Positions 4,561 to 22,174 of a stretch of 64,000 nucleotides of DNA are shown piece by piece. The translations under genes and the position numbers were made by a program. The number at the start of each line of letters is the position of its first letter. The stretch's first letter is position 1. Source of the stretch: Streptomyces sp. NBC_00414 (GTDB taxonomy: Bacteria > Actinomycetota > Actinomycetes > Streptomycetales > Streptomycetaceae); NCBI RefSeq assembly GCF_036038375.1, contig NZ_CP107935.1:1-64000 (forward strand), read 5' to 3'. The notes under the pieces are model-generated. The model was not told where the DNA came from. It ran no database searches and was given only the letters and a program-made list of their open reading frames with translations.

Positions 4561-4619
4561 GCGAAGCCTCTGGTGGACACGTTTCTCTTGGTCGAAGACT
4601 CGTCTACCAGGGGCTTCGC
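4561..4619 (-). promoter_or_regulatory. leader hairpin abutting transposase start codon, copy A
   Basis: On the minus strand, 4602-4619 and 4561-4578 form an 18-bp stem with two mismatches that ends at the base just before the ATG at 4558-4560. Copy B has the same arrangement at 58243-58301 although the loop and flanks have diverged. In RNA the stem would cover the region where a ribosome site should be, and none is visible outside it. This would damp translation of transcripts reading in from outside, a known way in which insertion sequences limit transposase. Confidence 0.6.
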
Positions 4620-4690
4620 CTGGCTGTCAGCTCAACCAGCGGGCTCGCCACACAGGTTGGGCAATACCGTTCACTGGCACACTGGTTGTC

Positions 4691-5260
4691 GTGTCCAACT
4701 CCTACGCGCAGCCCATCCTGAGAACAGCGGACCTCTCCGAGGGGTTGTGCACCGTCGAGAGGTTGCTTGGAATCGCTGACCTGGGAGGCCTTGAAGTCGA
4801 TTTCGATGTGCGGATCTCCTCGACTCGCTCGCTTTCGGCGGTGCTGGCCGTGTTGCCGGATGCCGAATGGTGGGCGGAAGGGGGGAGAAGCGGCTCGTCG
4901 GAGCGTAGGGATGATCCATCCGCCTTCTTGCCCATCCGGCTGCGAGGCTGGGCTGGGGCACCGGAGACGGTGAAGCCATTCCTCCAGGCGGTTGGCGACA
5001 GCCCAGCGACGGTGCGATGGGACTTCAACGCCTGGCCCGAGGCTCCCGAGGTAGGTCTGGGAGTGGGGGGTACCCGCGGAGCATTCGTCACGCTGTGTGT
5101 CCGTGCCCGAGACCTCGACCTCGACCTCGACCTCGAGGAGCCTGCGGCCGACTGCATCGTTTTCGTCCACGTCAAGCAGGTCGAGGCCGAACGTGCACCG
5201 TGGCTAGCAGCCCAAGTCGGGTTGCGGGTGATCGGCGACTTGGTGATGGCGCCGTACTGA
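4691..5260 (+). CDS. hypothetical protein
   Basis: 189 residues from a GTG at 4691; the frame is open back to 4559, inside the IS flank, and no ribosome site is visible, so the true start may have been removed by the insertion. The protein is acidic, with a DLDLDLDLEE run around residues 148-157, and has no membrane segment or motif I recognise. It may be the surviving part of a longer gene. Confidence 0.45.
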   Translation: MSNSYAQPILRTADLSEGLCTVERLLGIADLGGLEVDFDVRISSTRSLSAVLAVLPDAEWWAEGGRSGSSERRDDPSAFLPIRLRGWAGAPETVKPFLQAVGDSPATVRWDFNAWPEAPEVGLGVGGTRGAFVTLCVRARDLDLDLDLEEPAADCIVFVHVKQVEAERAPWLAAQVGLRVIGDLVMAPY

Positions 5261-5454
5261 GAAGCTGTGGCAGAACCGGCAATCCGTGACGCTCTGGAGC
5301 CGGGGGCAGGATCGCCTGACTGGGCGGTCGGTGATGCTCTGACGGATTACACAGCTCTAGGGAGTGTCCGTCCTCGATCACCCTGGGCCGTGTATCGAAG
5401 GCCTTCAGGGGCCGAGCAGGCATGGTGCGGAATTGAGGAGTTGGCCGGAAGGGT

Positions 5455-6108
5455 TCAGCCGGTGAGGGTGGGGCCGATGAGGGGCAGTAGGACCTGGTCC
5501 ACCAGGCGGGCTATTCCTTCGGGGTCGAGAACGGTACCGAGCAGGTCCTCCTGCAGGACCGTCACCCCGATAGCTGCGGCGATCTCCATCCTGCCCGGCG
5601 CCAGCAGCAGCTCGACTCTCTCCGCGGTGATCTCGCCGCGCTGTTGAGCGCGGTGGAGGCAGGCGGCGATGTCCTGGCGCTGTCCGGCGATGGCCCGCTC
5701 GCGCAGGGTGTCGGCGATCTGAGGGTGGGAGGCAGTGGCGGCGGCCAGTACGGCCGAGAAGTTGCGCGCTTGGGGCTGCAGGCACACGGATCTGTGGGTC
5801 AGTGTGCCGATGAGGTCCTCGCGCAGTGTCCCGGCGGCCGTCGCCTCGGCCGGGACGGCGGCGGCAAGCATGAGGCTTTCCAGGGCGTCGGCGACCAGGT
5901 CCTCGCGCGAGGCCCAGCGACGGTAGACGGTGGCCTTGGCCACCCCTGCGCGTGCGGCCACCGCGGCCATGTTGAGACCTGCGTAGCCGCTCTCGACGAT
6001 CAGGTCCAGGACCGCTTCGATGATGCGGGCATTCCGCTTCTCGTCACGGACGGGGCCGAAGGCGCCCCTGGGGCGCTGGCGTCCAGAGGGGAGGGTCGAC
6101 CTGGTCAT
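5455..6108 (-). CDS. TetR-family regulator
   Basis: 217 residues. The N-terminal HTH reads RIIEAVLDLIVESGYAGL, then MAAVAARAGVAKATVYRRW (about residues 45-63), the standard TetR DNA-binding pattern; the rest is a helical ligand domain. The frame extends upstream to 6201, but the ATG at 6106-6108 places the HTH at the usual distance. It diverges from the NmrA-type gene at 6391. The palindrome at 6315-6324 between them is a plausible operator. Confidence 0.85.
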   Translation of the reverse strand: MTRSTLPSGRQRPRGAFGPVRDEKRNARIIEAVLDLIVESGYAGLNMAAVAARAGVAKATVYRRWASREDLVADALESLMLAAAVPAEATAAGTLREDLIGTLTHRSVCLQPQARNFSAVLAAATASHPQIADTLRERAIAGQRQDIAACLHRAQQRGEITAERVELLLAPGRMEIAAAIGVTVLQEDLLGTVLDPEGIARLVDQVLLPLIGPTLTG

Positions 6109-6314
6109 ACGCACGACGGTACTGCATTCGCTTCCCCCGCCATCGGGTTCTCCCGCCCGGCCTGAGGGAAGCCGCGGACCGGGTCGTGGTGCCGTCCGCA
6201 TAGACCGCGGCGCCCAGCAAGAACCCTCAACCGCACCGACTCACGCTGCTCGTGAAGCGCGGGCTACCGGCCAGTCTTTGCCTGACCAGCAACTAGATAC
6301 TCACAAGACTCGAT

Positions 6315-6324
6315 ACTGTACAGT
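6315..6324. promoter_or_regulatory. candidate TetR operator
   Basis: ACTGTACAGT is a perfect 10-bp palindrome, loosely flanked by CAAG and CTTG at 6304 and 6328, in the gap between the divergent tetR (5455-6108) and NmrA-type gene (6391). Position and symmetry suit the local TetR regulator; assignment is inference. Confidence 0.5.
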
Positions 6325-6390
6325 CTCTACTTGTTGAACGCTTGAGCCCAGATATCGAAAAAATAGAACTAATCGAAGGAGAGGCGTGCT

Positions 6391-7314
6391 GTGGCACACA
6401 ACGACAAGGCGAAGGTGCTGATCACCGGGGCGACGGGAATGCAGGGCGGCGCCGCCGTCCAGGCACTTCTGCGCGCGCGACACCCCGTGACCGCGTTCGT
6501 GCGCAACCCCTCCTCCGAGCCTGCCCAGGCGCTCGCCCGGCAGGGCGTCGCCCTCGCGAGCGGAAACATGGACGACCTCGCATCCCTGGAGGCTGCCGGC
6601 GCCGGACACGACGCGGTCTTCTCCGTGCAGATGCCGGGCCTCGACCCGGCCGACCTTGGCGCCGAGTCGCGCAAGGCCCGCAACATCGCCACCGCAGCCA
6701 AGCGGTCCGGCATCACGCAGATCCTCCACACGTCCGTGTCAGGGACCGGATGGCGCAGCCAGCACCCGGGCTACGAGCAGTCCGACCTGTTGAAGGCGTA
6801 CTGGGACGAGAAGGAAGCCGCTGAGGACGCGATCCGGCAGTCGGGACTGGAGGACTGGACGATTTTCAAGCCCGCCTTCTACATGGACAACTTCCTCTCG
6901 CCCAAGCGGGAGTACCTGTCCCCCGACCTGCCTCAGGGCAAGATCTTCACCGCGACGAACCCGCAGACCAGGCTGGCACTCATCAACTCGGACGACCTCG
7001 GAGCAGCGGTCGCCGCCGCCGTGGCCGAGCCCGGAAAGTTCCACGAGGCCGAGATCGAGTTCGCGGGCGACGCGCTGACGTATCCCGAGATCGCGGATGC
7101 CCTCTCCAAGGCCGCCGGCCGCGAGATCACCGCCGTCTCCGTGTCCTGGGAGGAGCAGGCGCAGCGCCTTGGCGCGCCCTCGGCGGACACCGAGATCTGG
7201 TACGACCACGTCGGCTACCCGGCACGCCCCCACGACGCCGCCCGCTACGGCCTGACCACGACTACCTTCGAGCAGTGGGCAGCACAGCAGGACTGGACCA
7301 TGCCGGCCGCCTGA
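6391..7314 (+). CDS. NmrA-type NAD(P)-binding protein
   Basis: 307 residues. A Rossmann fold starts at residue 8 (VLITGATGMQGG, glycine motif GxTGxxG), followed by the NmrA pattern of an early FVRNP cofactor loop and an HTSVSGT segment near 112. NmrA/HSCARG-like proteins bind NAD(P) and act either as redox-sensing regulators or as atypical short-chain reductases. The GTG start has GGAGAGG nine bases upstream. Divergent TetR regulation is likely from the context. Confidence 0.85.
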   Translation: MAHNDKAKVLITGATGMQGGAAVQALLRARHPVTAFVRNPSSEPAQALARQGVALASGNMDDLASLEAAGAGHDAVFSVQMPGLDPADLGAESRKARNIATAAKRSGITQILHTSVSGTGWRSQHPGYEQSDLLKAYWDEKEAAEDAIRQSGLEDWTIFKPAFYMDNFLSPKREYLSPDLPQGKIFTATNPQTRLALINSDDLGAAVAAAVAEPGKFHEAEIEFAGDALTYPEIADALSKAAGREITAVSVSWEEQAQRLGAPSADTEIWYDHVGYPARPHDAARYGLTTTTFEQWAAQQDWTMPAA

Positions 7315-7342
7315 ACTGAGACACCCCTTCGACTTCACCGGC

Positions 7343-7396
7343 GGGAGGTGGTGTTCCCGGCGGCGACCCGCCGCGCTGCCGGGAACACCATCTCCC
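7343..7396. terminator. long hairpin terminator after NmrA-type gene
   Basis: Two 19-base arms (7343-7361 and 7378-7396) pair with one mismatch, and the loop itself is GC-rich. It lies 28 bases after the NmrA-type stop codon and before the convergent transposase, so it can serve both directions. Confidence 0.75.
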
Positions 7397-7434
7397 GGGC
7401 GAAGATGACCGTGTCCGTACGGGCGGCGGCTATG

Positions 7435-8289
7435 TCAGCGCAGGGCGGTTGGGGCGAGACGGACCGTGTGCGGCCTGGCCCGAATCCGGACAGGGGCGGG
7501 CCCGGAGGTCGTCTTCACGGGGGCGAGCGAGTGGGGCACGGTGCGGGGCGGCCGCGGGGGCCGGGTCAGACGGCGGACCATGAGGGTGATGACGGTCCAG
7601 GTGAGGTGGGCCTCGCTGTGGGAGATGAGCCGCTCGTAGTCCCGCACGTTCCTTCTGGCCCGCATGATCCAGGAGATAGCGCGCTCGACGCGCCACCGCT
7701 TCGCCAGGACGGCGAAGCCGTCCTGGTCCTTGCGGCGGGGCACCGTTTTGAGTGTGAGGTCGAGGAAGGAGTGGGCCCAGGCGATGAGGGGTCCGCCATA
7801 GGCGCAGTCGGCCCAGACGACGGTGACCTCGGGATGCGTGAGCCGCAGCCGGAAGAGCAGGTCGCGGGCGGGAACACTGTCGTGCAGTGAGGCGACGCCG
7901 ACCATCACGGCCAGCGGCATGCCGCGCATGTCCACGACCAGATGCCGCTTGCGCCCGTTGATCAGCTTCCCGCCGTCGAACCCGCGGGTGTCCGCGCCCA
8001 CCGTCTCCGCTCCCTTGACCGATTGCGAGTCCAGGATCACCGCCACGGTGCGGGGGTTGAGGCCGTCATGGACACGGAGCCGCTCGTGGAGCTCAGCATG
8101 GATGCGGGCCAGGTCTCCGCTCGCCCGCCACCTGCGGAAGTACCCGTAGAGAGTGCGCCAGGGGATCTTGAAGTTGGTGGAGCGCACCAACCGTTTCAGG
8201 CTCAGACCCGCGGGCCGTGCTTCTTCCAGGGCCCTGCGAACGGCCTCGGCGTGCACATGGGCGGGCTGTCCGGCCGCCCGCCGCGGCAT
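7435..8289 (-). pseudogene. IS5-family transposase with replaced N-terminus
   Basis: 284 codons. From about residue 42 the protein is a typical IS5-family transposase: a WRTLYGYFRRW segment, ILDSQSVKGAETVGADTRG with the first catalytic Asp, VWADCAYGG with the second, and RRWRVERAISWIMRARR with the Glu. The usual first 60 residues are missing. In their place is an unrelated start, MPRRAAGQPAHVHAEAVRRA, that looks like the beginning of an HTH-type protein and begins two bases after the DUF6192 stop codon. This reads as an in-frame fusion between the gene that once followed DUF6192 and a 5'-truncated insertion sequence. Confidence 0.7.
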
Positions 8290-8291
8290 GA

Positions 8292-9239
8292 CTACTGGCC
8301 CCGCAGCAGTTCGGCCAGAGCCTCGTCCAGATCGACCCTGCCGGTCGCCACGGCCGATTCGATCCAGTCGGCGGTGGCGCGGATCTTCTCCAACTGCCTT
8401 CCCACCAGTTCTACTTGCGACTCGGTGAACTCGCGGCCTCGTAAGCGCGGGACCAGGCGGCTGGCGCCGGCGACGAAGCCCTGACACACCCCGACCAAAT
8501 CGGTGAATTCCATCGCCCGGTGGAAGCCCCGCACGATCCGGGCCGGATCAGCGCTGCCCCCGTCCTCTGCGGCGTCCCCCTCACGGGGCTCGTCCCACCA
8601 GTCCTCCCCGCCTTCCTCGACAAGGTCGGCCCGGTCGAACTGGGCCTGGTTCACCCGCTCCCTGGCCTGCCGGTCTCGCATAGCCCGAAAGGCCACCTCG
8701 GGACGCTGAAGCAGCTCACAGGCCGCCAAGGCCGCCACGGTCTCGTCGGCGGCCAGGTCACGGATGCTCTCCACCTTCTCCTGCGCCGTCACCGGCGTGG
8801 CCGTCGACCAGCCCGCGACCCGCTTGGCCGCATCCCCGCTCCACTGGCGCCGCCCCGTGCGCTCGTTCAGCGGCGGGTCCTTGATCTGCTCGAACGCATC
8901 CGGCGCGGAGGCCAGGATCCGGTGCACCTCGAACGACACGCCCTCCTGACGCTGTTCGGCAGGCCACCGGGCAGCCACCCAGCGATACGTGCGGACCGTA
9001 TGGAAAGACAGCCCGATCTCCTCCGCGAAGATCCTGAGCGAGGCTTCCACACTCAGCGTGTCCTCGCCCTCGACGGGCTGGTGACCGCCGTGGCCGCGCA
9101 ACGGCTCGATCTCCAGAGCCATGTCGCCCACCTCGAACTGGCACCGAGTCATTGTGTGCACCAGCTTCACCGACTCCGTCACCAGCTCCTCGAACCGGTC
9201 GCGCAACACGCTGCCGATCGTCTGGGACACGGCACTCAC
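8292..9239 (-). CDS. DUF6192 family protein
   Basis: 315 residues. I recognise the DUF6192 (RacO-like) pattern: CQFEVGDMALEIEPLR near residue 33, VRTYRWVAARWPAEQR near 80 (an HTH-like segment), VSFEVHRILAS, and a conserved C-terminus ending in DEALAELLRGQ. Members are common in Streptomyces accessory DNA and plasmids; function is unknown, with a DNA-binding role suggested by the HTH-like region. The sequence from 9240 to 9634 holds no gene I can support. Confidence 0.75.
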   Translation of the reverse strand: MSAVSQTIGSVLRDRFEELVTESVKLVHTMTRCQFEVGDMALEIEPLRGHGGHQPVEGEDTLSVEASLRIFAEEIGLSFHTVRTYRWVAARWPAEQRQEGVSFEVHRILASAPDAFEQIKDPPLNERTGRRQWSGDAAKRVAGWSTATPVTAQEKVESIRDLAADETVAALAACELLQRPEVAFRAMRDRQARERVNQAQFDRADLVEEGGEDWWDEPREGDAAEDGGSADPARIVRGFHRAMEFTDLVGVCQGFVAGASRLVPRLRGREFTESQVELVGRQLEKIRATADWIESAVATGRVDLDEALAELLRGQ

Positions 9240-9634
9240 CCCCAGCGGGCCAAAACGCCGGCACCTTGCCGAACGGGAGAGGCTCCGGCCCGTACACCGC
9301 AGGCTCCGCCGCGCCTTTCATGGTCACCACAGAGGACCGAAAGCGCCCCCATCCACACGCGAAACGTCCCACCTGCGCCCGAACCCAACCCCACCCCGAC
9401 CTCAAAATGAACGAACCTGCCCAGCCATCACAGCAGGTCACCGATCAAGGGATGTGACACAGCTTCTGAGAAGGCTGTGGCACCGGTGCGTCGCTGCCGG
9501 GATCGTCCCAGTGGGGATGCACGGCGGTCGTCAGAAATGCTCAGGCTCTCCTGATGACAGATCGCCAGTCTCGGATGCAGGAAAGGCGCTGAGCAGCCGA
9601 AACGACAAGTTGGAAAGGCTCACTGGCTACCCCT

Positions 9635-9808
9635 GTGGCAGATGAGATGCTGCGCCTACTGGACTGCCATGACGGTCCGTTCTACGGGCCCATCTCCTTC
9701 TTCGCTGTCGGCTCCCGTGACCCGCGGCCTCGGAGCTTGGACGAAGAACAGCAGGAGATGCTCCGGGCAGCCCACGAGGTAGCCCTGAACCGAGTTGGCC
9801 CGCACTGA
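9635..9808 (+). CDS. small hypothetical protein
   Basis: 57 residues from a GTG, starting MADEMLRLLDCHDGPFYG. Codon use is Streptomyces-like, but no convincing ribosome site is present; GGAAAGG lies too far upstream (9612-9618). The sequence before it is open in this frame, so this may be the end of a longer decayed gene. No family recognised. Confidence 0.3.
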   Translation: MADEMLRLLDCHDGPFYGPISFFAVGSRDPRPRSLDEEQQEMLRAAHEVALNRVGPH

Positions 9809-9843
9809 CCCAACGACATCACGACGCCCATCAATCGTGATAC

Positions 9844-10551
9844 CTACCATTTAGAGTTCCAGGGCCCAAACTCCACATAAAGTGGCGTGCCCAATAGAAG
9901 CTTCATACCGCATTCTTCATTACAGACGGATAGGGCACGCGCCATACCACTCAGTCGAGCCCTGGTGAAATGCACCGCTTCCACCTTTGTCTCCGATGCG
10001 CGTTGTAGCTGCTGCAGGTAAATTGCAGCGGTATGGGAAACTCGGCAGCTCCTCAGACTCGGAGTGGGATGCTCGCGTTCGGGGTCCAGTTGGGTGAGGA
10101 AGTGCATGAGACCAGTGAGAGCCGAGTAGCGGACTTCTCCCTGCTCTCCCGCCCGGTCGGTCAGGTTACTTCCTGTACCGCACAGAATTAGGCCGCCGTC
10201 GCTGGAATCGGTAGCTGAGGGGGCGAAGAAGAACGCGCATCCCCAGTTGTTGGAAGCGCCCGAAATTCCAGGTACGACAGATCCATACTCCAGTTCCTGA
10301 TCAAAATAGAACCACTCGCCTCCGAGCAAGGACGGGTCACCGGAAGCTTTTGCTTTTCTCCGTATTGCTTTGGCAGCTACTGCCAGCATTTGGCCAGCCT
10401 GAGTCTCTGTGTCCAACTCAAGATCGGGACCAAGGTGGAACCCTGTCCCGAGCGCTGTGATCTCTACCTCCCGTCGAAGGAAGGGGAACCTCCTGGGCGG
10501 GATGTGGAGACCTTTCAACTTGTCACGCGACAGGTACAAGAGATCCCTCAT
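9844..10551 (-). CDS. hypothetical protein, SAVMC3_10250-like
   Basis: 235 residues starting MRDLLYLSRDKLKGL, a start I associate with Streptomyces proteins of the SAVMC3_10250 group. No catalytic motif is visible. A middle stretch (GGEWFYFDQELEYGSV) followed by GCAFFFAPS and GGLILCGTGSNL suggests a beta-rich core. Codon use is noticeably less GC-biased than that of its neighbours (many third-position A and T), so it may be a recent arrival. It lies downstream of the tpg-like gene on the same strand. Confidence 0.6.
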   Translation of the reverse strand: MRDLLYLSRDKLKGLHIPPRRFPFLRREVEITALGTGFHLGPDLELDTETQAGQMLAVAAKAIRRKAKASGDPSLLGGEWFYFDQELEYGSVVPGISGASNNWGCAFFFAPSATDSSDGGLILCGTGSNLTDRAGEQGEVRYSALTGLMHFLTQLDPEREHPTPSLRSCRVSHTAAIYLQQLQRASETKVEAVHFTRARLSGMARALSVCNEECGMKLLLGTPLYVEFGPWNSKW

Positions 10552-10710
10552 CCGTCCATCAACTCATATCCAACAGCGCGGGCGTTAGACCCTGGGAACG
10601 GGTTCGCTCTGCCTGCCGAGGTGGGCGAGCTGGTCGTGCAGGGCAAAGCCTCGGGCCACCGCTTCGGCCATCGAACGGATGAGGTAGCGGGCCGCTGTGT
10701 GCAGTGGATT

Positions 10711-11283
10711 TCAGGCGGCGAAGCCGACGTTGGTGACGTACTCGTACTGGCCCCACTGCGAGCCGAGGTCGACGACCTGGTCCACCCACGCATCGTCGAG
10801 CTCCTGGTTATCGTCGGCCGCCCACGCGGCAACGATGCGGTCCCAGCGGCGGACATTCATGGTCCGGAACTCCACCGCGCGCAGGCGGGGCCGGTCGACC
10901 TGCGACTGGTTGAGCGGGTGGATTTCCACGCGGGTGCCGCGGCCTTCGCGGTTGAGGCGGGCGGTCAGGTAGCGGGCGACGTTCTCGCGGCGCACGGTGC
11001 GGTAGGCGCGCTCGATCGCGGCAAGGTTGCGGCGGGAGGGTGTGCGGGTGCCGGCTTGCCAGGCGCGCAGGGTGCGGTCGGTGACGGTCAGTCCGGCCGC
11101 GCGGGCAGCATGGCGGGCGTGGTCGGTGCGTGTGAGGTAGTGCAGGCGGGCGAGCAGGCCTCGCCGTGCGGTGATCGGGGTGGCGATGTAGCCGGCGAGC
11201 GCGTCCAGCTGGCGGGCGACCGCTTCGTGGCCTTTGAGGCCGCGGGCGCCGTACTTGCCGAACTCGATGTTCCGCTCAGGCAT
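10711..11283 (-). CDS. Tpg-like candidate telomere terminal protein
   Basis: 190 residues. An HTH-like segment (VTDRTLRAWQAGTRTPSRRN, about 67-86) is followed by a basic region and a C-terminal alpha/beta part (RVEIHPLNQSQV, then VEFRTMNVRRWDRIVAAW, then EYVTNVGFAA). Size, HTH in the first half and C-terminal layout match Streptomyces terminal proteins (Tpg, about 185 residues), which are linked to the 5' ends of linear replicons and prime end patching. Sequence identity to Tpg as I remember it is low, so this is an inferred analogue. It lies downstream of the Tap-like gene, the same order as tap-tpg. GGAAGAG precedes the ATG. A frameshifted copy lies at 18392-18953. Alternative: an XRE-type regulator. 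Confidence 0.5.
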   Translation of the reverse strand: MPERNIEFGKYGARGLKGHEAVARQLDALAGYIATPITARRGLLARLHYLTRTDHARHAARAAGLTVTDRTLRAWQAGTRTPSRRNLAAIERAYRTVRRENVARYLTARLNREGRGTRVEIHPLNQSQVDRPRLRAVEFRTMNVRRWDRIVAAWAADDNQELDDAWVDQVVDLGSQWGQYEYVTNVGFAA

Positions 11284-11337
11284 GGTCTCTTCCGAATCCC
11301 TCGGGTTGGTGGATCACGGTACGGGGCTGCGGGCGCC

Positions 11338-11381
11338 GTTCTCCCGCCCCGGCGGGGAACTTGGCGCCGGGGCGGGAGAAC
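11338..11381 (-). terminator. hairpin between tap-like and tpg-like genes
   Basis: Perfect 15-bp arms (11338-11352 and 11367-11381) with a 14-base loop, beginning five bases after the tap-like stop codon. It could end most tap-like transcripts or stabilise their 3' end, so that the two products are made in different amounts. The tpg-like gene may then also need its own promoter. Confidence 0.65.
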
Positions 11382-11385
11382 AGCG

Positions 11386-12813
11386 CTAGGAGGCGCTCTC
11401 AGGTGGCTCGTTGGCGGTGCTGGGGTCGATGCCGACGGTGTAGGTGTCCTTGACCTTGACTTCGGTGACGCCCCGGCCTTCGGGGAACACCACCCGCCAG
11501 TCGCCGGCCACATGCAGTTCGTCGGTACCCATCGCCCGGACCACCAGCAGGCCCTCGTCATAGGCGCGGTGGGCCTTCCACCACAGGTTGGCGAAGGCCT
11601 GGGAACGGATGAGGTGCATCCAGTCGGTGCGGTAGAGCTCCCGGTTGTAGTTCGACTCCCCCAACGTGGACACGAACTTCGAGTACATCGCCTTCACGTA
11701 CTCCAGCGTCACCTCGTCGCCGTCGGCGATCGCCCGGTCCCGGGCATCCTTCAAGGCAATGCGGAACTTCTCCAGCAGCCCCTCGGTCGCCCCCGACGTC
11801 CACGACTCGTGAATCTCCGGGGGGTCGCACAGCCCGTACTTCGGGCCCGACACGCGCAGCAGCAGGCGCAGCGTCGGCTCGGTCACCCACAGCGGGCCCG
11901 GTTCGTCGCGGTTGCCGATCGGGTTCGGCAGCACCGCCTCGTGCTCCCATGCAGGTGGGGTGATCAGGTGCAGGCCCGCGCGGCGCCGGTCGTGGTGATT
12001 CCCGGTGGAGTGTTCGAGTTGCCCGAGCGGCAGATGCGTCTTGAGGGCGGAGAGGTAGGCGCCGTTGACGTCCAGCGCCGTGATCTCGTGCACGCCCGTC
12101 GGGAGCTCCGGCCGGCTCCACTTCGGGCGGGCCTCCCACACCTGGTCGGCGCCGCGGGCACTCTGCTTGCGCAGGATGTCCGGCAGCCACGGGTGGGCGA
12201 CGACGTCGTAGCGGCCGCCCTTGCGGGTGTCGTCCAGGAGCGCCATCGCATCCGGGATCGCCCGCTTCACCAACGCCGCCGTCGCCGCGTCGACATCACC
12301 GGCGTGTTCAGTGAGCGCGGCCGCCACCGCAGCGCCGATCCGGTCGGGGGCATCGGCGGTCTGCAGACGGCGGCCGACGGGGACGACCTTCACGCCGGAC
12401 GCCGCGGGGCGCGGCTTCCTGGCGGGCGCCGGCTGCCGCGGTGCCGCGCGGGGCGCGGGCTTCTCTGCCTGCGCAGGGACGGGAGCGGGCGCGGCCGGGG
12501 CGCACTCGGCAGGGTCCAAGTGCTGGGGGAAGCCTTCGACCTGATGGCGGGCCGGCTGCCCGCACAGCACACACGGCTGCGCGACTGCCAGGACGACAAG
12601 GAAGTACGCGTACTTCTCCCGCACCTCCCCGCTCGGGTCCCGCCCGGCCTCCCAGCCCCCGACGGTGGACGGGCCCACTCCGAGGGCCTGCGCGAGCTGC
12701 GCGCGGGACAGGTTCAACCCCTCACGCAGGGCGCGCCGTTCCGCGGCGGGCGGCAGCGGGGTCTCCTGCCCGGCCGCGGCGAGGAGGGCGTCGATCGCGT
12801 CGAAGTCCGCCAT
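11386..12813 (-). CDS. Tap-like telomere-associated protein with polymerase-like motifs
   Basis: 475 residues. The N-terminus (IDALLAAAGQETPLPPAAER, then an XRE-type HTH at about 34-58) matches the start of Streptomyces Tap, the protein that binds telomere overhangs and recruits Tpg. CVLC (81-84) may bind metal, and 105-140 is a Pro/Ala-rich linker. In the C-terminal half DVNGAY (248-253), KAMYSKFVSTLG (374-385) and GTDELHV (429-435) fall in the order and spacing of motifs A, B and C of family-B DNA polymerases, as used in protein-primed replication. It is shorter than Tap (about 740). It overlaps the upstream HTH gene by one base (TGATG) and precedes the tpg-like gene. Family assignment is by recall; polymerase activity is inference. 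Confidence 0.6.
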   Translation of the reverse strand: MADFDAIDALLAAAGQETPLPPAAERRALREGLNLSRAQLAQALGVGPSTVGGWEAGRDPSGEVREKYAYFLVVLAVAQPCVLCGQPARHQVEGFPQHLDPAECAPAAPAPVPAQAEKPAPRAAPRQPAPARKPRPAASGVKVVPVGRRLQTADAPDRIGAAVAAALTEHAGDVDAATAALVKRAIPDAMALLDDTRKGGRYDVVAHPWLPDILRKQSARGADQVWEARPKWSRPELPTGVHEITALDVNGAYLSALKTHLPLGQLEHSTGNHHDRRRAGLHLITPPAWEHEAVLPNPIGNRDEPGPLWVTEPTLRLLLRVSGPKYGLCDPPEIHESWTSGATEGLLEKFRIALKDARDRAIADGDEVTLEYVKAMYSKFVSTLGESNYNRELYRTDWMHLIRSQAFANLWWKAHRAYDEGLLVVRAMGTDELHVAGDWRVVFPEGRGVTEVKVKDTYTVGIDPSTANEPPESAS

Positions 12814-13082
12814 CAGGCCGTCCCGTCCACGGCCGCAGGGCGGGCGCCGGAAGTCGGGGGGCCGGGGATCCGGCGGCGTTCCGCGGGGAGGGCTTCGACG
12901 GCGCGGGTGGGGCCGTCCAGGAGGTCGTACGCGGTGATGCCGTAGTGCGCGGCGACCGCCTCGCAGTCGGCCAGGCTCCAGGCGGCGGTGCCGGCCTGAC
13001 GGCGGCTCACCTGCGCCTGGCTCACTCCCACCGCGGCGGCAAGCGCGGTCTGCGACTCACCGGCCGTTGTCATCACCCACAT
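12813..13082 (-). CDS. HTH (XRE-type) regulator heading the tap/tpg-like operon
   Basis: 89 residues if started at the ATG at 13082. The HTH is ESQTALAAAVGVSQAQVSRR, followed by a Trp-Ser-Leu-Ala-Asp-Cys helix and YGITAYDLLDGPTRA, a pattern frequent in small Streptomyces DNA-binding proteins. No ribosome site is seen, so it may be leaderless or have lost a short N-terminal part; related proteins usually have 15-20 residues before the Met-Trp-Val-Met segment. Its stop overlaps the tap-like start, which implies coupled translation. It probably controls the operon. Confidence 0.65.
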   Translation of the reverse strand: MWVMTTAGESQTALAAAVGVSQAQVSRRQAGTAAWSLADCEAVAAHYGITAYDLLDGPTRAVEALPAERRRIPGPPTSGARPAAVDGTA

Positions 13083-13157
13083 CGGTGAACCCGCGCCAGA
13101 CCGCCGTGCGAGCTCCGAACCACTGGGCTGCCCTCGATGCGTTGGGGGGGCACACTG

Positions 13158-13190
13158 GCAATTGCTTCGTCGGCGATTGCATTGCAATTG
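13158..13190. promoter_or_regulatory. candidate operator upstream of HTH/tap/tpg-like operon
   Basis: The palindrome GCAATTGC (13158-13165) and GCAATTG (13184-13190) repeat 26 bases apart in a locally AT-richer stretch about 80-110 bases upstream of the HTH start. Another perfect copy of the core, TGCAATTGCA, occurs at 62953-62962. Regulation by the local HTH protein is a guess. Confidence 0.35.
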
Positions 13191-13202
13191 AGTTGACGGT
13201 TG

Positions 13203-13433
13203 TTCCCGCGGCTGCTGTTCGTCCTGGACGGCACCGGATCGGCCAGCATCGAGCACCGTGTCCGCGCCCTGAACGCGGCAGCCAAGGACACAGCCGCATC
13301 CGGCTTCCCCTACCAGGTCCCCATCCTGTCGGCCCCGTTGACCGATCTGCTGCGCGAGGGGCCGTCAGCGCCCGTCTGGCGGCCCGTCCAGACACCCACC
13401 CAGAAAGTGAGTTGGATGCACCCTCAGGCGTGA
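13203..13433 (+). pseudogene. replication-relaxation protein, C-terminal fragment
   Basis: The frame reads RLLFVLDGTG, then a helix (RVRALNAAAKD), VPILSAPLTDLL and ends shortly after GPSAPVWRPV. This is the C-terminal end of the replication-relaxation family found on actinomycete plasmids and integrative elements. The N-terminal winged-helix and nuclease-like parts are missing, cut at about 13195 next to the HTH/tap-like operon promoter. Confidence 0.65.
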
Positions 13434-13508
13434 TTCCGCTGACCACCCCTCAGGACCTGGATCAAACTGTCAGCCTGCGTTGTCAGTGAGGGGTGACACG
13501 CTGCGGTT

Positions 13509-13721
13509 ATGACTGAACCTGTGAAGGGCCCGGCCAGCTACTTTCCGTCGATCGAGAAGAAGTACGGCCGGCCCATAGCCGAATGGAAGAACCTGATCCG
13601 TACATCACCCCTGTCCAAGCACATGGAGCTGGTCAGGTGGCTCAAGACCGAACACGGCCTGGGACACGGCCACGCCAATGCGCTTGTCGCCCACACCCTC
13701 GCGGAGACCGACAGAGCGTAG
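13509..13721 (+). CDS. DUF4287 family protein
   Basis: 70 residues. I recognise SYFPSIEKKYGRPIAEW, then HMELVRWLKTEHGLGHGHAN, then VAHTLAE as a complete DUF4287 domain. These small cytoplasmic proteins are widespread in actinobacteria; no activity is known. There is no clear ribosome site near the ATG, and a leaderless start is possible. Confidence 0.8.
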   Translation: MTEPVKGPASYFPSIEKKYGRPIAEWKNLIRTSPLSKHMELVRWLKTEHGLGHGHANALVAHTLAETDRA

Positions 13722-13796
13722 AAACCCGTTGGTCGGCCCCGACAGAAGCCCGACCACGATCTGCGGTGTCCCAGCACTGCGTTTCCTGGGTTCAGG

Positions 13797-13960
13797 ATTC
13801 AGTCGAGCGCGTCGAGTGCAGCAGTGTCCGCGTGACCTTCCCCCAGGCTGCGCCGGGCTCTCGGTGGCGCCGGGGGGAAGGCGCCCCATCACCCCGCGGG
13901 CCCGAAAAGCTCATCGAGGTCTGTGATGCAAACGCCGGGCAGCGCGTCAAGGAGGTCGGC
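13797..13960. repeat. subtelomeric repeat family R1, copy 1
   Basis: About 160 bases here match 42095-42262 in the same orientation. Shared blocks include TCAGTCGAG near the start, GGCTGCGCCGGGCTCTCGG, CATCGAGGTCTGTGATGC, and CGGGCAGCGC. A minus-strand frame reading ITDLDELFGPAG (or ITDLDAL) runs through both, so it may be the end of a decayed gene. Confidence 0.65.
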
Positions 13961-14089
13961 CTGGGTGGCACGGATACCCGGGGCAGGAGCCTCGGGGCCG
14001 GCGCCGAGTGTGCGGCGGGTGGTCACGGAGATCATCGTAGGGGCGCGCCAGGTTCGGTATCCGTTGATTGCCTCGGTCGCGGGCAGCAA
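13889..14089 (-). CDS. possible small hypothetical protein
   Basis: 66 codons; the second half (ATQADLLDALPGVCITDLDE) is conserved in frame in repeat copy 42095-42262, which hints at past coding selection. No ribosome site is clear, and it may be only the 3' end of a decayed gene. Confidence 0.3.
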   Translation of the reverse strand: MLPATEAINGYRTWRAPTMISVTTRRTLGAGPEAPAPGIRATQADLLDALPGVCITDLDELFGPAG

Positions 14090-14217
14090 CCGTCACGCAG
14101 CAAGTGAGCTCGCGCCATGACCGGCGGGCAGGCCCCGGCAGGGTGCCGGGTAGGTTCGAGTGTGGGTCCGTGCCTGTCGGAGCAGGCACGGACCCACCGT
14201 CGCCTTTTGTAGAGCGG

Positions 14218-14735
14218 TCAACAGCGTGTCCAGCCGACGACAGCGTCGTTGACGAAGTAGCGCGCACCCGCTTCCTCACAGCGGGTGCGTAGTCTCCGAG
14301 GGTCCAACTCCCGTCATGGCGTTGGGCCCTCACTCCATAGGCGTCTCCCCCGACGTGACGTCGGACCCAGATCCGACGGAGGTCGGTTCGGCAACTGGGA
14401 CAGTGCTGGCCGTCGGGCGGGGTGAAGGCGTCGCTGTCGCCGAACAGTTCGGTGATGGGCAGCCCGCACCGTTCCACACGGGGGCGGGGCCGGTCATTGG
14501 GGAATGCAGTACCCAAGGCCGTATGCCAGCTGTGGGGCCGGCCCTGTCGCCGTGGGGCGGGCGGCTGCTGACCGCGGTCGAATGCGAGGACTGCGGTCAC
14601 GTCATCCGGCGCGGCACGCTTGAGAGCACGGCAGGCCAGCTGGTACATCCAGAACCGGTGCGGCTCGGGGCGTTCCTCGACAGCACCCGCCGCCGGACCG
14701 CCACGCTCAGCCCCGAACGCCGTGCGCAACTCCAT
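14218..14735 (-). pseudogene. frameshifted hypothetical gene
   Basis: From about 14550 downwards one frame reads WHTALGTAFPND, CGLPITELFGD, FTPPDGQHCPSCR and RHDGSWTLGDY; another frame then continues RTRCEEAGARYFVNDAVVGW and stops at 14218. Together they read as one Streptomyces hypothetical protein with a possible Cys-pair metal site (C-x(n)-CPSC), broken by a one-base indel near 14310. The upstream part of the frame is antisense to the helicase remnant at 14660-14756, so the 5' end is not original. Confidence 0.5.
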
Positions 14736-14756
14736 GAGTTGGGGATGCGCTGGTAG
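14660..14756 (+). pseudogene. helicase-associated domain remnant (C-terminus)
   Basis: The last 30 codons read VRLGAFLDSTRRRTATLSPE, then RRAQLHELGMRW and stop. This is the end of the helicase-associated (HA) repeats carried by terminal helicases, whose repeats finish with an ERRxxLxxLGMxW pattern. Nothing of the catalytic domains is present. Confidence 0.6.
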
Positions 14757-14776
14757 ATGATCCCGTGCGGCTGAAT

Positions 14777-14808
14777 GCCCCGTACCCGTCAGGTGGCGGG
14801 TACGGGGC
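14777..14808. terminator. terminator after helicase remnant
   Basis: Perfect 12-bp arms (14777-14788 and 14797-14808, GCCCCGTACCCG and its complement) with an 8-base loop, starting 20 bases after the stop of the helicase remnant. Confidence 0.75.
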
Positions 14809-14827
14809 GCCCCCGCGCAATGCCGGC

Positions 14828-15070
14828 TGAGGCAGCAGCCGACAAGGTTGCGCAGTGTCCTCCCCCGGCTCCTGACCCTCCGGAGGGGAGAGAGAGGGTC
14901 AGGAGCCGGGGTCCGGGGCCCTGAACCGGCCCCCTCCTTCCTGCAAGGGGGCCGTCCCTGTCCGTGTCTTCCGGTACCGAGTGCGGGCCGGATGCGGCCG
15001 TAGGCGCCATCTACGCCTGCCGCAGGGCCACCTGATACGTCGACGGGCAGAAGCGGCCCGGAGCGTTCTG
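14828..15070. repeat. subtelomeric repeat family R2, copy 1
   Basis: About 240 bases match 44402-44650 in the same orientation. The core is a large hairpin: 14863-14880 pairs perfectly with 14894-14911 (18 bp), followed by GGGGCC/GGCCCC arms. Conservation then continues through CCGTCCCTGTCCGTGTCTTC and ATCTACGCCTGCCGCAGG. No coding function seen. Both copies follow a helicase-associated remnant. Confidence 0.7.
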
Positions 15071-15219
15071 CCGGGCAGCCGCCTGTACAGGGCAGAAGGG
15101 GTGTGGATCTTGTAGGGCGAGGGTGCGGTGACGGCCGGTGTCACAGCTGCCGGTCTCCTGCGCACGCAGGCCAGAGGCGGTTCCGGAAACGGTTGCGCCC
15201 GGCCTGGTCCATCCGTGCC

Positions 15220-15255
15220 GCGGGCTCCCACACCGATTGCGGTGTGGGAGCCCGC
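15220..15255. terminator. 16-bp stem hairpin
   Basis: 15220-15235 pairs perfectly with 15240-15255 around an ATTG tetraloop. It precedes the small membrane protein at 15330. A strong factor-independent terminator for leftward or rightward transcripts of the repeat region. Confidence 0.75.
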
Positions 15256-15329
15256 AGCCCTGGTGACGACGTGATCACGATGGCGGGACGGAGCATTGCC
15301 GGGGGGCGGTGCCGGTCGTTGAGATCGGT

Positions 15330-15584
15330 ATGAGGACAGGAGACCAGCAGAACGTGGCGCCGGTGGCCTTCGCCTCGCTGACGGATGCGTACTGGCTGGC
15401 CCACGACAATGCCGACTTCGGCGGCTGCCGTGAGTTCCCGGGCGCTGATGACAGCGGCAGCCGGGACGGCCGTCCGGCCGCACCGGACAGCAAACCGCCC
15501 GGGCGAATGGAACAGGCCCGGACGATCCTCGTGGCCGTGGCAGCCCTCACCGTGATCGCCGCACTGGTGATGGCCGCGAGTTGA
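15330..15584 (+). CDS. small protein with C-terminal membrane anchor
   Basis: 84 residues if started at the ATG at 15330. A GTG at 15309 is also in frame; a GTG at 15354, with AGGAG 11 bases upstream, is a third option. The soluble part (VAFASLTDAYWLAHDNADF) precedes a polar linker and one C-terminal transmembrane helix (TILVAVAALTVIAALVMAA). Such tail-anchored small proteins are common on actinomycete mobile elements; I cannot name the family. Confidence 0.5.
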   Translation: MRTGDQQNVAPVAFASLTDAYWLAHDNADFGGCREFPGADDSGSRDGRPAAPDSKPPGRMEQARTILVAVAALTVIAALVMAAS

Positions 15585-15898
15585 CCCGCCCGAACGAAAC
15601 GGGCGGCAGCCACGCGCACAACGGTCGCGGGTGAAGACATAGACGTGCAAGCGGGCCATGGCCTGGGCTGGGCCGTGTCTCTCTGATCAGATCAGGCCCG
15701 GGGCGCCCGGCATCGCAGGCTGATCCGAAGGACACCGTCCCAGGCGGACCGAACGCGCGGGCAAGGGCGCCGAGCCAGCCGTTGACAGCCGATTTTCGTA
15801 GGCAAACCGTTGTCGGCGCGTCGTTGCCCGGTGGGCCCGTCACCCGCATCCTGACGGTTGAGCACGATCACGATGAAGAGAATGAGGGTTTCCCGCAC

Positions 15899-16192
15899 AT
15901 GCAGCAGATCCCCGACCTCGGAAAGAACTCGCTCGGCAAGCCGGATCCGTGGGCCAGGGTCCGGGGGCTCGCCTGGTGGCAGTTGGTCCTCTCGATCGTG
16001 CCGATCCTCCTGCTGTCGGTCGGCGGGGCGATGGGCGGGGCCATCGGGACGGCGGGCCTCTTCGCGAACCTCTCCCTCGCCCGTAAGCCGTTCGGGACGC
16101 CGGTCAAGCTCCTGGCGATGCTGGGCGTGGTACTCGCCTCTTATCTGGGGTACCTCCTCGTCGGTCTCGCCTACAACCTGCTCAAGGGCTGA
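15899..16192 (+). CDS. two-span membrane protein
   Basis: 97 residues from the ATG at 15899 (GAGGG ten bases upstream). Two hydrophobic segments, about residues 27-52 (LVLSIVPILLLSVGGAMGGA) and 68-92 (LLAMLGVVLASYLGYLLVGL), with a basic loop between. The Gly-rich first helix is typical of small actinomycete membrane proteins. Function unknown. Confidence 0.55.
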   Translation: MQQIPDLGKNSLGKPDPWARVRGLAWWQLVLSIVPILLLSVGGAMGGAIGTAGLFANLSLARKPFGTPVKLLAMLGVVLASYLGYLLVGLAYNLLKG

Positions 16193-16329
16193 CCCCCTCC
16201 GGCCGGGATTCCTGATCTCGGCGGCCTGGGCGATGGGCCCGGGGCGTCCGGCCCTGATCCGCCGGACCGCCCGTGTCCGACTTGTGGCACAGCCCCAGGG
16301 CGTGGCCCAGTTCGTGTGCCGCGGTCTGC

Positions 16330-16533
16330 CGACGTTTCCGCCAGCGGCGAGGCCGTCACGGCGGCCGCCCACCCGGCTTCGACCGCGAGGCTTACAAGCA
16401 ACGGAACACCGTCGAACGCTGCATCAACGGCCTCAAGCAGTGGCAGGGCCTGGCCACACGAACCGACGAACTCGCCATCGCCCAACAGGCCGCGCTCCAC
16501 CGCTCCGGCATCCTCATCTGGACCCGACACTGA
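16330..16533 (+). pseudogene. IS5-family transposase C-terminal fragment
   Basis: Reads RQRRGRHGGRPPGFDREAYK, then RNTVERCINGLKQW and ends soon after AALHRSGILIW. This is the C-terminal third of IS5-family transposases with the catalytic Glu (NTVERC). The 5' part is absent. It ends 34 bases before the IS701-type element. Confidence 0.7.
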
Positions 16534-16566
16534 CCAACGAGACAGAAACCTAGGGCCTGACAGAAC

Positions 16567-17973
16567 CTAGTACTGCAACGGTGCTTGCTCTGAGTGCTGG
16601 GCAGTTTTCAGGGCCTGTGTCCACGTCGTTTGTAGTGGCTGGTGCGGGCTTGGTGTTGGCGTCGTCGGCGCCATGCCGACCAGTGCAGGATGTGGTCGAC
16701 CGGGGTGGGGCGGCGGTGGGTGAGGCGGGTGATCAGGCGTCGGATTTCGGCGAGGCTGAGGTGGATGAGCTGGGAGGATCCGTTTCTGCTTTGTCCGCGT
16801 CCAGCTGGCGGGCTCGCAGGACGGTCAGGCAGGCGTGGGCGGCCATGGCCAGGGTCATGTGGCGGTGCCAGCCGGGATAGCGGCGGACCTGGTAGTCGTC
16901 CAGGCCGCATTCCTGCTTGGCGCTCTGGAAGCATTCCTCCACCGCCCAGCGGCTGCCCGCGATGCGGATCAGTTCATCCAGCGTGGTGCCGGCCGGGCAG
17001 TAGGCGATGTAGTAGGAGATTTCCCCGGGCCGGCTGACGCTGCGGCGGGCGAGAACCCAGTGCCGGCGGTCTTCGCGGTGCCAGGGCCGCACCTCGACGC
17101 GGGCCCAGTCATAGATCCGCCGGCCATGAGCTCCCTCACCGCACGACCGGCGCTTCCACTTCTGCCGCGGCAGACCGGGAAACAGGTCATGGACGGGGTG
17201 GTCGAGTGCCCAGCGGGTGACGACGGTGTCGTGGCGGGTGGTGGCCAAGACGTGGAAGACATCCGCCTGCTCCAGCTCGAACCGCCAGCCCTTACTGAAG
17301 CCATAGGCGGCGTCCGCCGTCACCCACCGGAACGGGACCTTGTCGGCGATGGCCTTGCGGACCATCGCTTTGGCCATGGCCACCTTCGTGGCGAAGGCGA
17401 CACTGTCGTCGATGCCCGCCCGGCGGCAGCGTTCCCGGTCATCCGTCCAGGACGTGGGCAGATACAGCCGGCGGTCGATCAGCGTGCGCCCGCGGCCACT
17501 CGCATAGGCGACGAAGACCCGATCTGGGAGTTTTCCGTCCGTCCCGCGGTGCCGGAGTACTGCCTTTGCACCCCGGCCGAGCGGATGCCCTTCTTCAGGA
17601 ACCCGGTGTCGTCGACGATCAGGACGGCATCTGGGTCTGCGAGGTGTTCGACGACGTAGTCGCGTACGTCGTCCAGAACCTCGTCAGCGTCCCACTCGAT
17701 GCGGTTCAGCAGCCGGTGAAGGCGATCTGGACCGCCATGGCCGGCCTCCTCCGCCAGCGTCCAGCCGTTCTTTCGCTCCAGCGGAGCTATCAGCCCTCGC
17801 ATGTAAGCAAGCGCCGACTGACGCGGCTCCTCGCGGCTGAACCTGTGCACGAACCGCTCATGTACGGCCTCGAGTTCACCCGCCCACACCCTGACATCAG
17901 CAAGGTCCCCACCCATGACCACACCAACGACCGAACTGGCCAACAGTCACGCCAAGCACCGTTGCAGTACTAG
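16567..17973. mobile_element. complete IS701-type element with CTAG target duplication
   Basis: Perfect 17-bp inverted ends, TACTGCAACGGTGCTTG at 16571-16587 and its complement at 17953-17969, are flanked on both sides by CTAG (16567-16570 and 17970-17973), consistent with a 4-bp target duplication. Length about 1.4 kb. It contains one frameshifted transposase on the minus strand. Intact ends and target duplication suggest a fairly recent insertion. Confidence 0.85.
16733..17943 (-). pseudogene. IS701-family transposase, frameshifted
   Basis: The N-terminal frame (17943-17479) has FSREEPRQSALAYMRGLIAP and AVLIVDDTGFLKKG with the first catalytic Asp; the C-terminal frame (17383-16733) has RWVTADAAYGFSKGWR with the second Asp and RWAVEECFQSAKQECGLDDY with the Glu. 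The join VFVAYASGRG continues in the other frame after TENSQIG, so one base appears to be missing near 17518. Otherwise full length (about 400 residues). A single error in the read could also explain it. Confidence 0.8.
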
Positions 17974-17984
17974 GGCCTGGCCGA

Positions 17985-18165
17985 CGGAGAGGCAGAGGCA
18001 AGCGCTGAAGACGCAGCTGTGGCTGTCGGCCGGCGTGAGCCGCAGGCTGCGTGCGATCGCCGCCCGCACCGGCCTCGCTCCCGGGCAGGTCCTTGCCCAG
18101 CTCGCCGACCGAATCCGCATCGACGACGACGCGCCCTGGCCGTCGACGCCTTCACCCCGCACTGA
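17985..18165 (+). pseudogene. fragment of small DNA-binding-like protein
   Basis: Reads SAGVSRRLRAIAARTGLAPG, QVLAQLADRIRIDDD and then, after a frame change, ALAVDAFTPH and stop. I recognise the C-terminal half of a short Streptomyces protein with a ribbon-helix-helix-like character; the N-terminus is cut by the IS701-type insertion. Confidence 0.4.
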
Positions 18166-18184
18166 CAGGTCGTGCGCATCAGGA

Positions 18185-18227
18185 CGGTGCCCCGCACCCG
18201 CGGTCCCAGTGAGGGTGCGGGGCACCG
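18185..18227. terminator. 15-bp stem terminator
   Basis: 18185-18199 and 18213-18227 (CGGTGCCCCGCACCC and its complement) pair perfectly, 20 bases after the stop of the preceding fragment. Confidence 0.7.
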
Positions 18228-18254
18228 CCGCCAGCAGGTCGCCTGACGGCGCGC

Positions 18255-18345
18255 GGCCCGGCCGCGCTCACACGACCGGGCTCCCACGTGGCTTTTGGCC
18301 GAGCGTCCCGCCAAACCCGCCCGCTGTCGTCACCCACAACGGTGA
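18255..18345. repeat. noncoding repeat family R3, copy 1
   Basis: About 90 bases match 61515-61600 in the same orientation: CCGCGCTCACACG, CGTGGCTTT, GCCGAGCGTCC and a TCACCC-x-CA end are shared. Read on the minus strand, both copies encode a GGxGxTLGxKP-type string and sit just before minus-strand genes, so this may be a transcribed leader or terminator segment. Confidence 0.5.
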
Positions 18346-18391
18346 ACCTGGCCGGGTCGTCATCAAAATGCGTCCTTTGCCATCAAAAAGT

Positions 18392-18953
18392 TCAGGCAGC
18401 ACAGCCAATGGTGGCGACGTACTCGTACGGGCCCCACTGCGAGCCGAGGCCGACGACCTGGTCCACCCATGCCTCGTCCATTTCCTGGTCGTCACCCGCC
18501 GCCCACGCCCCGACGATGCGGTCCCAGTTGCGGACGTTCATGGTGCGGAACTCCACTGCACGCTGGCGCGGCCGGTCGACCCGGGACTGGTTGACCGGAT
18601 GGACTTCCACACGGGTGCCGCGGCCGTCGCGGTTGAGGCGGGCGAGCAGGTAGCGGGCGACGTTCTCGCGCCGCACGGTGCGGTATGCCTGCTCGATCGC
18701 GGTGAGGTTCTTGCGGAAGGGCGTGCGGGTGCCCGGCCTGCCAGGCGCGCACGGTGCGGTCGGTGACGGTCAGGCCGGCTGCTCGGGCGTGGGCGCTGCG
18801 GGTGAGGTAGTGCAGGCGCGCCTGGAGGCCTCGCCGGGCGGTGAGGGGGGTGGTGATGCAGCCGACGCGCGCGAAAGGCCGGCGGGCGACGGCTTCGTGG
18901 CCCTTGATGCCGTGGGCGCCGTACTTGCCGAACTCGATGTTCCGTTCAGGCAT
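18392..18953 (-). pseudogene. second tpg-like gene, frameshifted
   Basis: The first half (MPERNIEFGKYGAHGIKGHE, then HYLTR, TVTDRTVRAWQAG) and the second half (RRENVARYLLARLNRDGRG to YEYVATIGCAA) both match the protein at 10711-11283, but lie in different frames. An extra C at about 18732 (GTGCCCGG against GTGCCGG in the intact copy) causes the shift; about 12 bases are also missing near the HTH. No tap-like gene precedes it, so the operon partner has been lost. Confidence 0.7.
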
Positions 18954-19078
18954 GGAGTCGGGTCCTTCGGGTCGCGTGGATCTGCTTTTCCTGTGCCGGG
19001 CGCGGCTGTTGCCAGCAGGCGGGCGTTTGACCGGTCCGGGTTGCTGGTCAGCTCATGGCTGTGAAGAGGTGGAAGGCA

Positions 19079-22160: not shown

Positions 22161-22174
22161 CGGACAGGTGGTGC

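Follow-up and report, generated by a model that had tools for sequence, protein, structure and literature searches.

A telomere-proximal Streptomyces operon with a predicted protein-primed family-B polymerase as the likely end-patching machine of Sg2247-type telomeres

Introduction

In Streptomyces, the archetypal pair Tap-Tpg (NCBIfam NF047542 and NF047541) and the Tac-Tpc pair of SCP1 each join a Tap-type protein (TAP) to a terminal protein (TP). Polymerase activity has been found for Tap and Tac, which were nevertheless said to be without a DNA polymerase motif, and Streptomyces was said to encode no family-B polymerase (PMC4513846, 2015). For telomeres of the Sg2247 type, among which pSCAT and pSGZL are listed, a 2021 telomere survey called the proteins elusive (PMC8743542), and for S. 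albus J1074 a novel, unidentified pair has been supposed (PMC3937824). The word Sg2247 occurred in PMC8743542 only within the literature searched. That literature, which lay outside preprints and most subscription journals, yielded no work tying Streptomyces telomere proteins to family-B polymerases, a link denied in PMC4513846; the words "Tap" and "protein-primed" were absent from the main text of a census of polymerases in bacteria that appeared in 2026 (PMC12926913). Here we describe a three-gene unit that lies close to a telomere of Streptomyces sp. NBC_00414, in the first 64,000 bases (the window) of a genome deposited as a single contig of 10,350,652 bp.

The three open reading frames (ORFs), all on the minus strand, encode a small helix-turn-helix (HTH) protein, a Tap-like protein of 475 residues and a Tpg-like protein of 190 residues (Table 1). 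We consider it quite probable that this unit is the end-patching operon of Sg2247-type telomeres, its larger protein combining a Tap-type HTH with a polymerase core and its 190-residue product serving as TP. A widespread TAP/TP module, most members of which are annotated as regulators, would then likely be the end-patching machine of these telomeres, with a TAP that structure modelling predicts to be a stripped-down protein-primed family-B polymerase.

Results

The 475-residue protein has a predicted protein-primed polymerase core

The largest conserved part of the 475-residue protein is a polymerase-like core and not its HTH. An AlphaFold2 (AF2) model compared with known structures predicts a family-B palm fold for this core, phi29-like over ~250 residues. 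The alignments of the five best VIA rows start at phi29 residue 134-189, and what lies upstream in the model is the HTH and a disordered linker; the N-terminal 3'-5' exonuclease domain is thus absent from the model. Aligned by hhalign with a set of seven phage protein-primed polymerases (phi29, Av-1, Evcara, Cp-1, BadAztec2, SYYB1 and PRD1), the core profile was collinear over 183 columns (E 2.7e-3, probability 11%) with a score of 32.3, against 25.2 for the best of 40 column-shuffled controls. Motif A (ALDVNGAYLSALKTHLPLG versus VFDVNSLYPAQMYSRLLPYG) and motif B (VKAMYSKFVS versus LNSLYGKFAS) are in register. The motif A pattern recurs in 200/200 close relatives (the 120 best proteins and 80 loci), and motifs B and C in 199/200 each. 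Family-B enzymes bind their metal ions through the Asp residues of motifs A and C, and both are present here as D248 and D431, motif C having been placed by eye. The motif A residue of phi29, Asp249, is critical for its synthetic activities (PMC6921018). The fold predicted for the core by the model is that of a phi29-type protein-primed family-B polymerase without an exonuclease, and the 475-residue protein would presumably be catalytic.

Several observations weigh against this prediction. The AF2 model has a mean predicted local distance difference test (pLDDT) of 72 and a predicted TM-score (pTM) of 0.57, segments below pLDDT 50 include residues 108-153, 200-208, 217-222 and 385-393, and Foldseek TM-scores to phi29 polymerase are just 0.31-0.42. 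With the E-value and probability given above, the hhalign match is weak by itself and stops before motif C, where GTDELH was matched by eye to DTDSIH beyond the aligned columns; the GTD at D431 is without the first Asp of the phi29 DTD. K374, invariant in 50 sequences, is set by hhalign opposite the motif-B Asn of phi29 and not its Lys. Used as a single sequence, phi29 scores E 0.88. Pfam at E ≤ 10 returned HTH-type families only for the window protein (the check extended to all 50 family members covered 25 of the 43 matching families), and NCBIfam returned no polymerase family. The Tap-like family profile found HTH matches at best among PDB sequences (E 0.002 and above), and scans of viral contigs gave no match for the short family and one short HTH-region match for Tap.

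A rival view is that the three proteins are ordinary plasmid-derived HTH transcription regulators. All three do contain HTH regions, and relatives are mostly listed as "helix-turn-helix" protein, "transcriptional regulator" or hypothetical protein. The main conserved part of the 475-residue protein is, however, the polymerase-like core, and neither a subtype-specific association with telomeres nor the occurrence of Tpg-like genes by themselves on plasmids whose ends match (both described below) would be expected of regulators. We regard this explanation as very improbable and reject it for plain regulators on account of the core and the telomere association.

The N-terminal region is that of a Tap-type protein. 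A sequence-only reading of the window had noticed its likeness to Tap, and NCBIfam telomere_Tap bears this out with 69.8 bits, the best stretch covering residues 4-152, far under the 600-bit cut-off. C81, C84, H98 and C104 are invariant in 50 sequences and possibly form a zinc site. The same reading made the protein about 260 residues shorter than Tap. A shorter form it is, although not a truncated Tap, which we reject: the middle region between HTH and core is absent, and the core is a homologous short form that matches no piece of Tap directly.

A Brachybacterium protein bridges the short form and archetypal Tap

When the full Tap-like family was compared with the Tap profile, the HTH region alone was matched. 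A bridge is provided by a 1694-residue protein from a linear plasmid of Brachybacterium avium, which matches Tap over residues 1116-1669 (NCBIfam E 5.3e-38, 131 of 600 bits; BLAST E 7e-27) and the short family over 1408-1630 (E 4e-12), and whose downstream gene gives a weak Tpg match (E 1.7e-6, 28 of 90 bits). The motif A Asp, a Lys and the GTD hold the same positions in the short family, the bridge and Tap. By hhalign, the short family matches Tap plus the Brachybacterium protein with E 7.8e-13, the bridge being on the Tap side only. The Tap core alone reaches E 0.38 against the phage polymerases, and 0.04 with the Brachybacterium protein added.

Two results count against extending the prediction to Tap. 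Leaving out the bridge, the short core and Tap give E 0.092, i.e. no match, and the AF2 model of archetypal Tap is unusable (pLDDT 31; the 74 input sequences share 85-92% identity with the first), so that a phi29-like fold of Tap is argued by sequence bridging only. Through this one protein, we take archetypal Tap to have the same core as the short form.

Two fused forms carry the core behind a long N-terminal region, one of 1073 residues on a 15-kb Streptomyces plasmid (L019, 1877-5098) and the other being the Brachybacterium protein itself (L023, 3298-8382); they are 24% identical to each other over ~550 residues, and a Tpg-like gene comes next in both. The N-terminus of the Brachybacterium protein gives a weak primase-like zinc-finger match.

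The 190-residue protein is a likely terminal protein

As a family profile, the Tpg-like protein aligns with Tpg alone through the HTH core (E 1.7e-3), and with Tpg plus the Brachybacterium partner at E 2.8e-4 and a score of 32.4, the best of 40 shuffles reaching 19.9. Six hydroxyl residues (Y49, T51, Y94, T117, S175 and Y180) are invariant in 40 sequences; the pSGZL protein, outside these 40, has by eye a Thr at 175. The 190-residue protein is likely the TP, which would supply the priming hydroxyl. On the other side, its likeness to Tpg is confined to the HTH region, and one checked relative is acidic (isoelectric point (pI) 5.6), unlike Tpg. The best library match is weak (HTH_3, E 0.033), NCBIfam gives no family at E ≤ 1 and the 90-bit Tpg cut-off is not reached, and BLAST finds no match to Tpg. 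Common descent with the archetypal pair is supported at the level of sequence for the TAP HTH and core, the latter via one bridge, and remotely for the HTH core of the TP.

Gene order, which the sequence-only reading had likened to that of tap-tpg, and coupling are conserved. From 206 Tap-like relatives, the best 80 were taken as named genome loci; a Tpg-like ORF lies directly downstream on the same strand in 60 of them, overlapping or ≤100 nt apart in 55 of these. In the window, the stop of the small HTH gene and the start of the 475-residue ORF overlap by one base (TGATG), the coupling in front that had also been pointed out, and a relative of the HTH gene lies directly upstream in at least 36/80 loci, the search having taken ORFs ≥100 residues. 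This gene is likely an operon regulator or accessory. The idea that the module is a local oddity fails: with 1791 Tap-like and 922 Tpg-like relatives at E ≤ 0.001, the family is large, and a module unique to the strain is rejected.

Telomere subtypes track Tap-like subfamilies on plasmids

The left end of the window, which had been read as a non-archetypal telomere, can now be assigned to a named class. Folding of the 3' strand over 5-180 gives seven hairpins, with loops GGA (4), TGGAG, GAA and GTA (fold z = -9.4). The telomere recurs at the other chromosome end and is 70-71% identical to the left end of pSCAT over 119 bp; pSGZL, the second Sg2247 member compared, gave no match in the same comparison. 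By end similarity and its GGA/GAA/GTA loops, the telomere belongs to the Sg2247 type, its matches being to a member of that type and to similar plasmid ends and not to the archetypal class. A search against 392 genomes gave matches in 20, the window genome included; 12/21 rows outside the window genome are ~50 bases or fewer. These matches were not used as evidence. As separate observations, base 1 of the window aligns with pSCAT base 22, the deposited end being probably short by ~20 outer nt with a palindrome, and the left chromosome end is 4 nt longer than the right.

We then compared plasmid ends with plasmid-borne pairs. With blastn, the pSGZL end matched 35 plasmids, always at the record end, and the pSCAT and window ends taken together matched 32 plasmids at the end (40 of 44 records were listed for pSCAT, 12 internal matches being set aside, and one internal row, NZ_CP108294, was set aside for the window). 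Of 28 plasmids with a Tap-like protein of the pSGZL subfamily (the top 28 among 60 rows listed out of 468 matching records), 23 have a pSGZL-type end and 0 the pSCAT/window type. For the window subfamily (57 of 60 listed, 146 matched, after dropping three rows <60% identity, two of them of the pSGZL subfamily), the counts are 0 and 22 of 57 (Fisher p 2e-13). Either end type occurs on 45/85 pair plasmids versus 1/59 listed Tap-only plasmids, a set drawn from 60 listed of 138 (p 2e-12). The two telomere subtypes track the two Tap-like subfamilies, which agrees with the sequence-only suggestion of a link between telomere and proteins. Since plasmids carrying close relatives of the pair often have the matching end type, the pair likely completes the copying of Sg2247-type ends.

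These counts have a reverse side. The p-values are too small, as they come from the best listed rows only and count related plasmids as independent, and 40/85 pair plasmids have neither end type. NBC_00289 plasmid 1 has the window telomere and a full archetypal Tap, with no Tap-like protein of its own, although a sister plasmid has the pair, and on the 15-kb NBC_01506 plasmid, which has both a fused relative and a Tpg-like gene, the ends are like none of the others compared.

Plasmids with such ends but without a listed Tap-like row number 12/35 for the pSGZL type and 10/32 for the pSCAT/window type; among the latter 10, a Tpg-like row is present for five, going by the 60 records listed out of 155. 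On the NBC_00490 plasmid, a lone Tpg-like gene stands beside parAB and primase genes, and neither a Tap-like protein nor Tap was found there. Lone tpg genes are known from the archetypal system, one of them dependent on a tap elsewhere (PMC3572947). Seven records match the window telomere, 6 with a Tpg-like gene and 4 with a Tap-like gene; on the seventh, a full archetypal Tap is encoded, and the pair is on its sister plasmid. The pair is not restricted to circular replicons either: the labelled pair plasmids are linear, save pSGZL, which is labelled circular yet has a listed telomere. Matches to the N-terminal HTH of Tap alone, with internal stops, were also seen on several linear plasmids (73160-73588 of NZ_CP041652.2, W07, and W01-W04), one such stretch overlapping a gene annotated as an MqsA-family antitoxin.

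One plasmid bears on whether the pair belongs to the GtpB-GtpA family of Streptomyces griseus IFO13350, in which case the TP role would be known already and what is new would be the identity of the polymerase and the link to Sg2247. In a Streptomyces population, each of the 11 chromosomes is reported to have a GtpB-GtpA operon, and telomeres with GGA loops occur where this is the sole system (PMC7205883); the window loops are mostly GGA. GtpA is 18% identical to Tpg according to the same paper, and the 190-residue protein is about as remote, without a BLAST match. Against this stands the linear plasmid pRLB1-9.2 (NZ_CP041652.2), which has a matching end and encodes proteins 77% and 83% identical to those of the window pair, whereas PMC7205883, with GtpB and GtpA among its queries, reports no Tap/Tpg homologue on the RLB1-9 plasmid. 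That plasmid is called pRLB1-9.1 in the paper, and a relative below its search cut-offs of 50% identity and 98% coverage would escape. The window family may be the same as GtpB-GtpA; we hold this somewhat less probable than its opposite, and it is compatible with the operon acting at Sg2247-type ends.

Chromosomal setting and copies of the pair

Table 1. Position, strand and character of the features described in the window.
Feature	Position	Strand	Remarks
Left telomere, Sg2247-type	1..180	.	Seven hairpins on 3' strand; same sequence at right chromosome end
Terminal inverted repeat	5..26339	.	26,335 bp, 100% identical to right end, without mismatch
Tpg-like protein, 190 residues, pI 10.9	10711..11283	-	Candidate terminal protein (protein primer)
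Tap-like protein, 475 residues	11386..12813	-	Family-B DNA polymerase by prediction (phi29-type, protein-primed, no exonuclease), linked to an HTH
Polymerase-like core, ~residues 176-461	11431..12288	-	Motif A D248, motif B 373-380, motif C-like GTD 429-431
N-terminal Tap-type region, residues 4-152	12358..12804	-	HTH ~27-64
Small HTH protein	12813..13082	-	ATG start; ORF reaches 13256 from GTG start
Tpg-like relic, frameshifted	18395..18953	-	In terminal repeat; 77-81% identical; no Tap-like match adjoining

As the first part of the window is repeated in inverted orientation at the opposite end, the chromosome is linear with a terminal repeat, and the three-gene unit inside it is present in two copies, each 10.7 kb from a chromosome end. 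A third pair, with open ORFs, lies at 461-464 kb (Tap-like 81% and Tpg-like 90% identical to the window copy). No complete archetypal tap was found in the genome with the NCBIfam Tap profile; besides the short-form HTH, the profile finds positions 408-695 only, in two frames, at 1.566 Mb, where residues 423-732 of intact Tap alone are left. The adjoining archetypal tpg is open (279 bits). An intact tpg next to a truncated, frameshifted tap (G000:C1:1565822-1567307) probably records a past swap of the end-replication system in this genome.

Other proteins could, in principle, serve these telomeres. The archetypal tpg at 1.566 Mb might do so with a partner that escaped recognition, or the 461-464 kb pair might do so alone, with the terminal-repeat copies as passengers. 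Both that tpg and that pair are indeed open. The tap beside the former is, however, a relic and the telomere is non-archetypal, while the copies in the terminal repeat have kept open ORFs and do not differ between the two ends, although a neighbouring Tpg-like copy has decayed. We judge this explanation improbable, and the sole archetypal tap found being a relic also speaks against another tap-tpg pair serving the ends, a possibility that the sequence-only reading had kept in view.

Around the operon, inside the terminal repeat, 3793-4560, 7435-8487 and 16733-17943 hold, by eye, transposase-like ORFs and fragments. Nearer the telomere, 716-898 is a relic of a ttrA-like terminal helicase gene, which follows the telomere on related plasmids; its first 57-60 residues are left, 69-74% identical, up to an 18-bp direct repeat (900, 944) that marks its end. 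A small ORF at 190-462 (-) adjoins the telomere, where two similar-ended plasmids have, by position only, an ORF annotated as DUF6199 (L116 207-455; L115 4025-4240).

Discussion

The operon that we propose for Sg2247-type ends would act as follows. Bidirectional replication from the middle would leave the 3' ends single-stranded and folded, at the window telomere, into seven hairpins. Through its HTH and zinc-like region, the Tap-like protein would attach to these hairpins while holding the TP, whose hydroxyl would be joined to the first nucleotides via D248 and D431; the remainder would be left to another polymerase, and the small HTH gene would likely regulate the operon. Catalysis, the identity of the primer and the priming steps are inferred.

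We lean, by a small degree, towards a wider view in which the Streptomyces TAPs, with archetypal Tap among them, form an overlooked branch of protein-primed family-B polymerases. Proofreading would have been lost in this branch and a telomere-binding HTH acquired, and the short form with its partner would be the missing end-replication machine of Sg2247-type telomeres. On this view, it is a domesticated phi29-like enzyme that completes the linear chromosomes of Streptomyces. If this holds, it gives a family, a fold and candidate catalytic residues for the polymerase puzzle of Tap and Tac and a candidate protein for Sg2247-type ends; it would also relabel a large family, most listed members of which bear the name of an HTH protein or transcription regulator, and make it easier to predict which linear plasmid can maintain which end type.

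With archetypal Tap-Tpg, the window pair shares the Tap-then-Tpg order, the N-terminal HTH of Tap, the remote HTH core of Tpg, a TP of ~185-190 residues, lone Tpg-like genes on plasmids and, via the Brachybacterium bridge, a motif A Asp, a Lys and a GTD at matching places. It differs in length (475 versus ~730 residues, the HTH-to-core region missing here), in giving no significant direct core match, in not reaching the equivalog cut-offs, in its telomere class and in the extra HTH gene in front. Two further pairs are likened by description only. Tac-Tpc of SCP1 is a TAP/TP pair working without another polymerase (PMC4513846), with a Tpc of 259 residues (PMC3572947) versus 190 here, and GtpB-GtpA is a two-gene TAP/TP operon that goes with GGA-loop telomeres, differing in that PMC7205883 did not count the RLB1-9 plasmid pair as a homologue. 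With the phi29-type polymerase and TP, the window proteins share a predicted fold of ~250 residues, a DVN-x-x-Y motif A followed by LP-x-G, a similar motif B, the motif C Asp and a small candidate TP next door. In contrast to phi29, the window protein is without the exonuclease domain, has GTD in place of DTD and a motif-B lysine that is not placed, carries a fused HTH in front, and is encoded by a gene that precedes that of the TP; by analogy with Tap, this enzyme would patch the ends and not copy the whole molecule.

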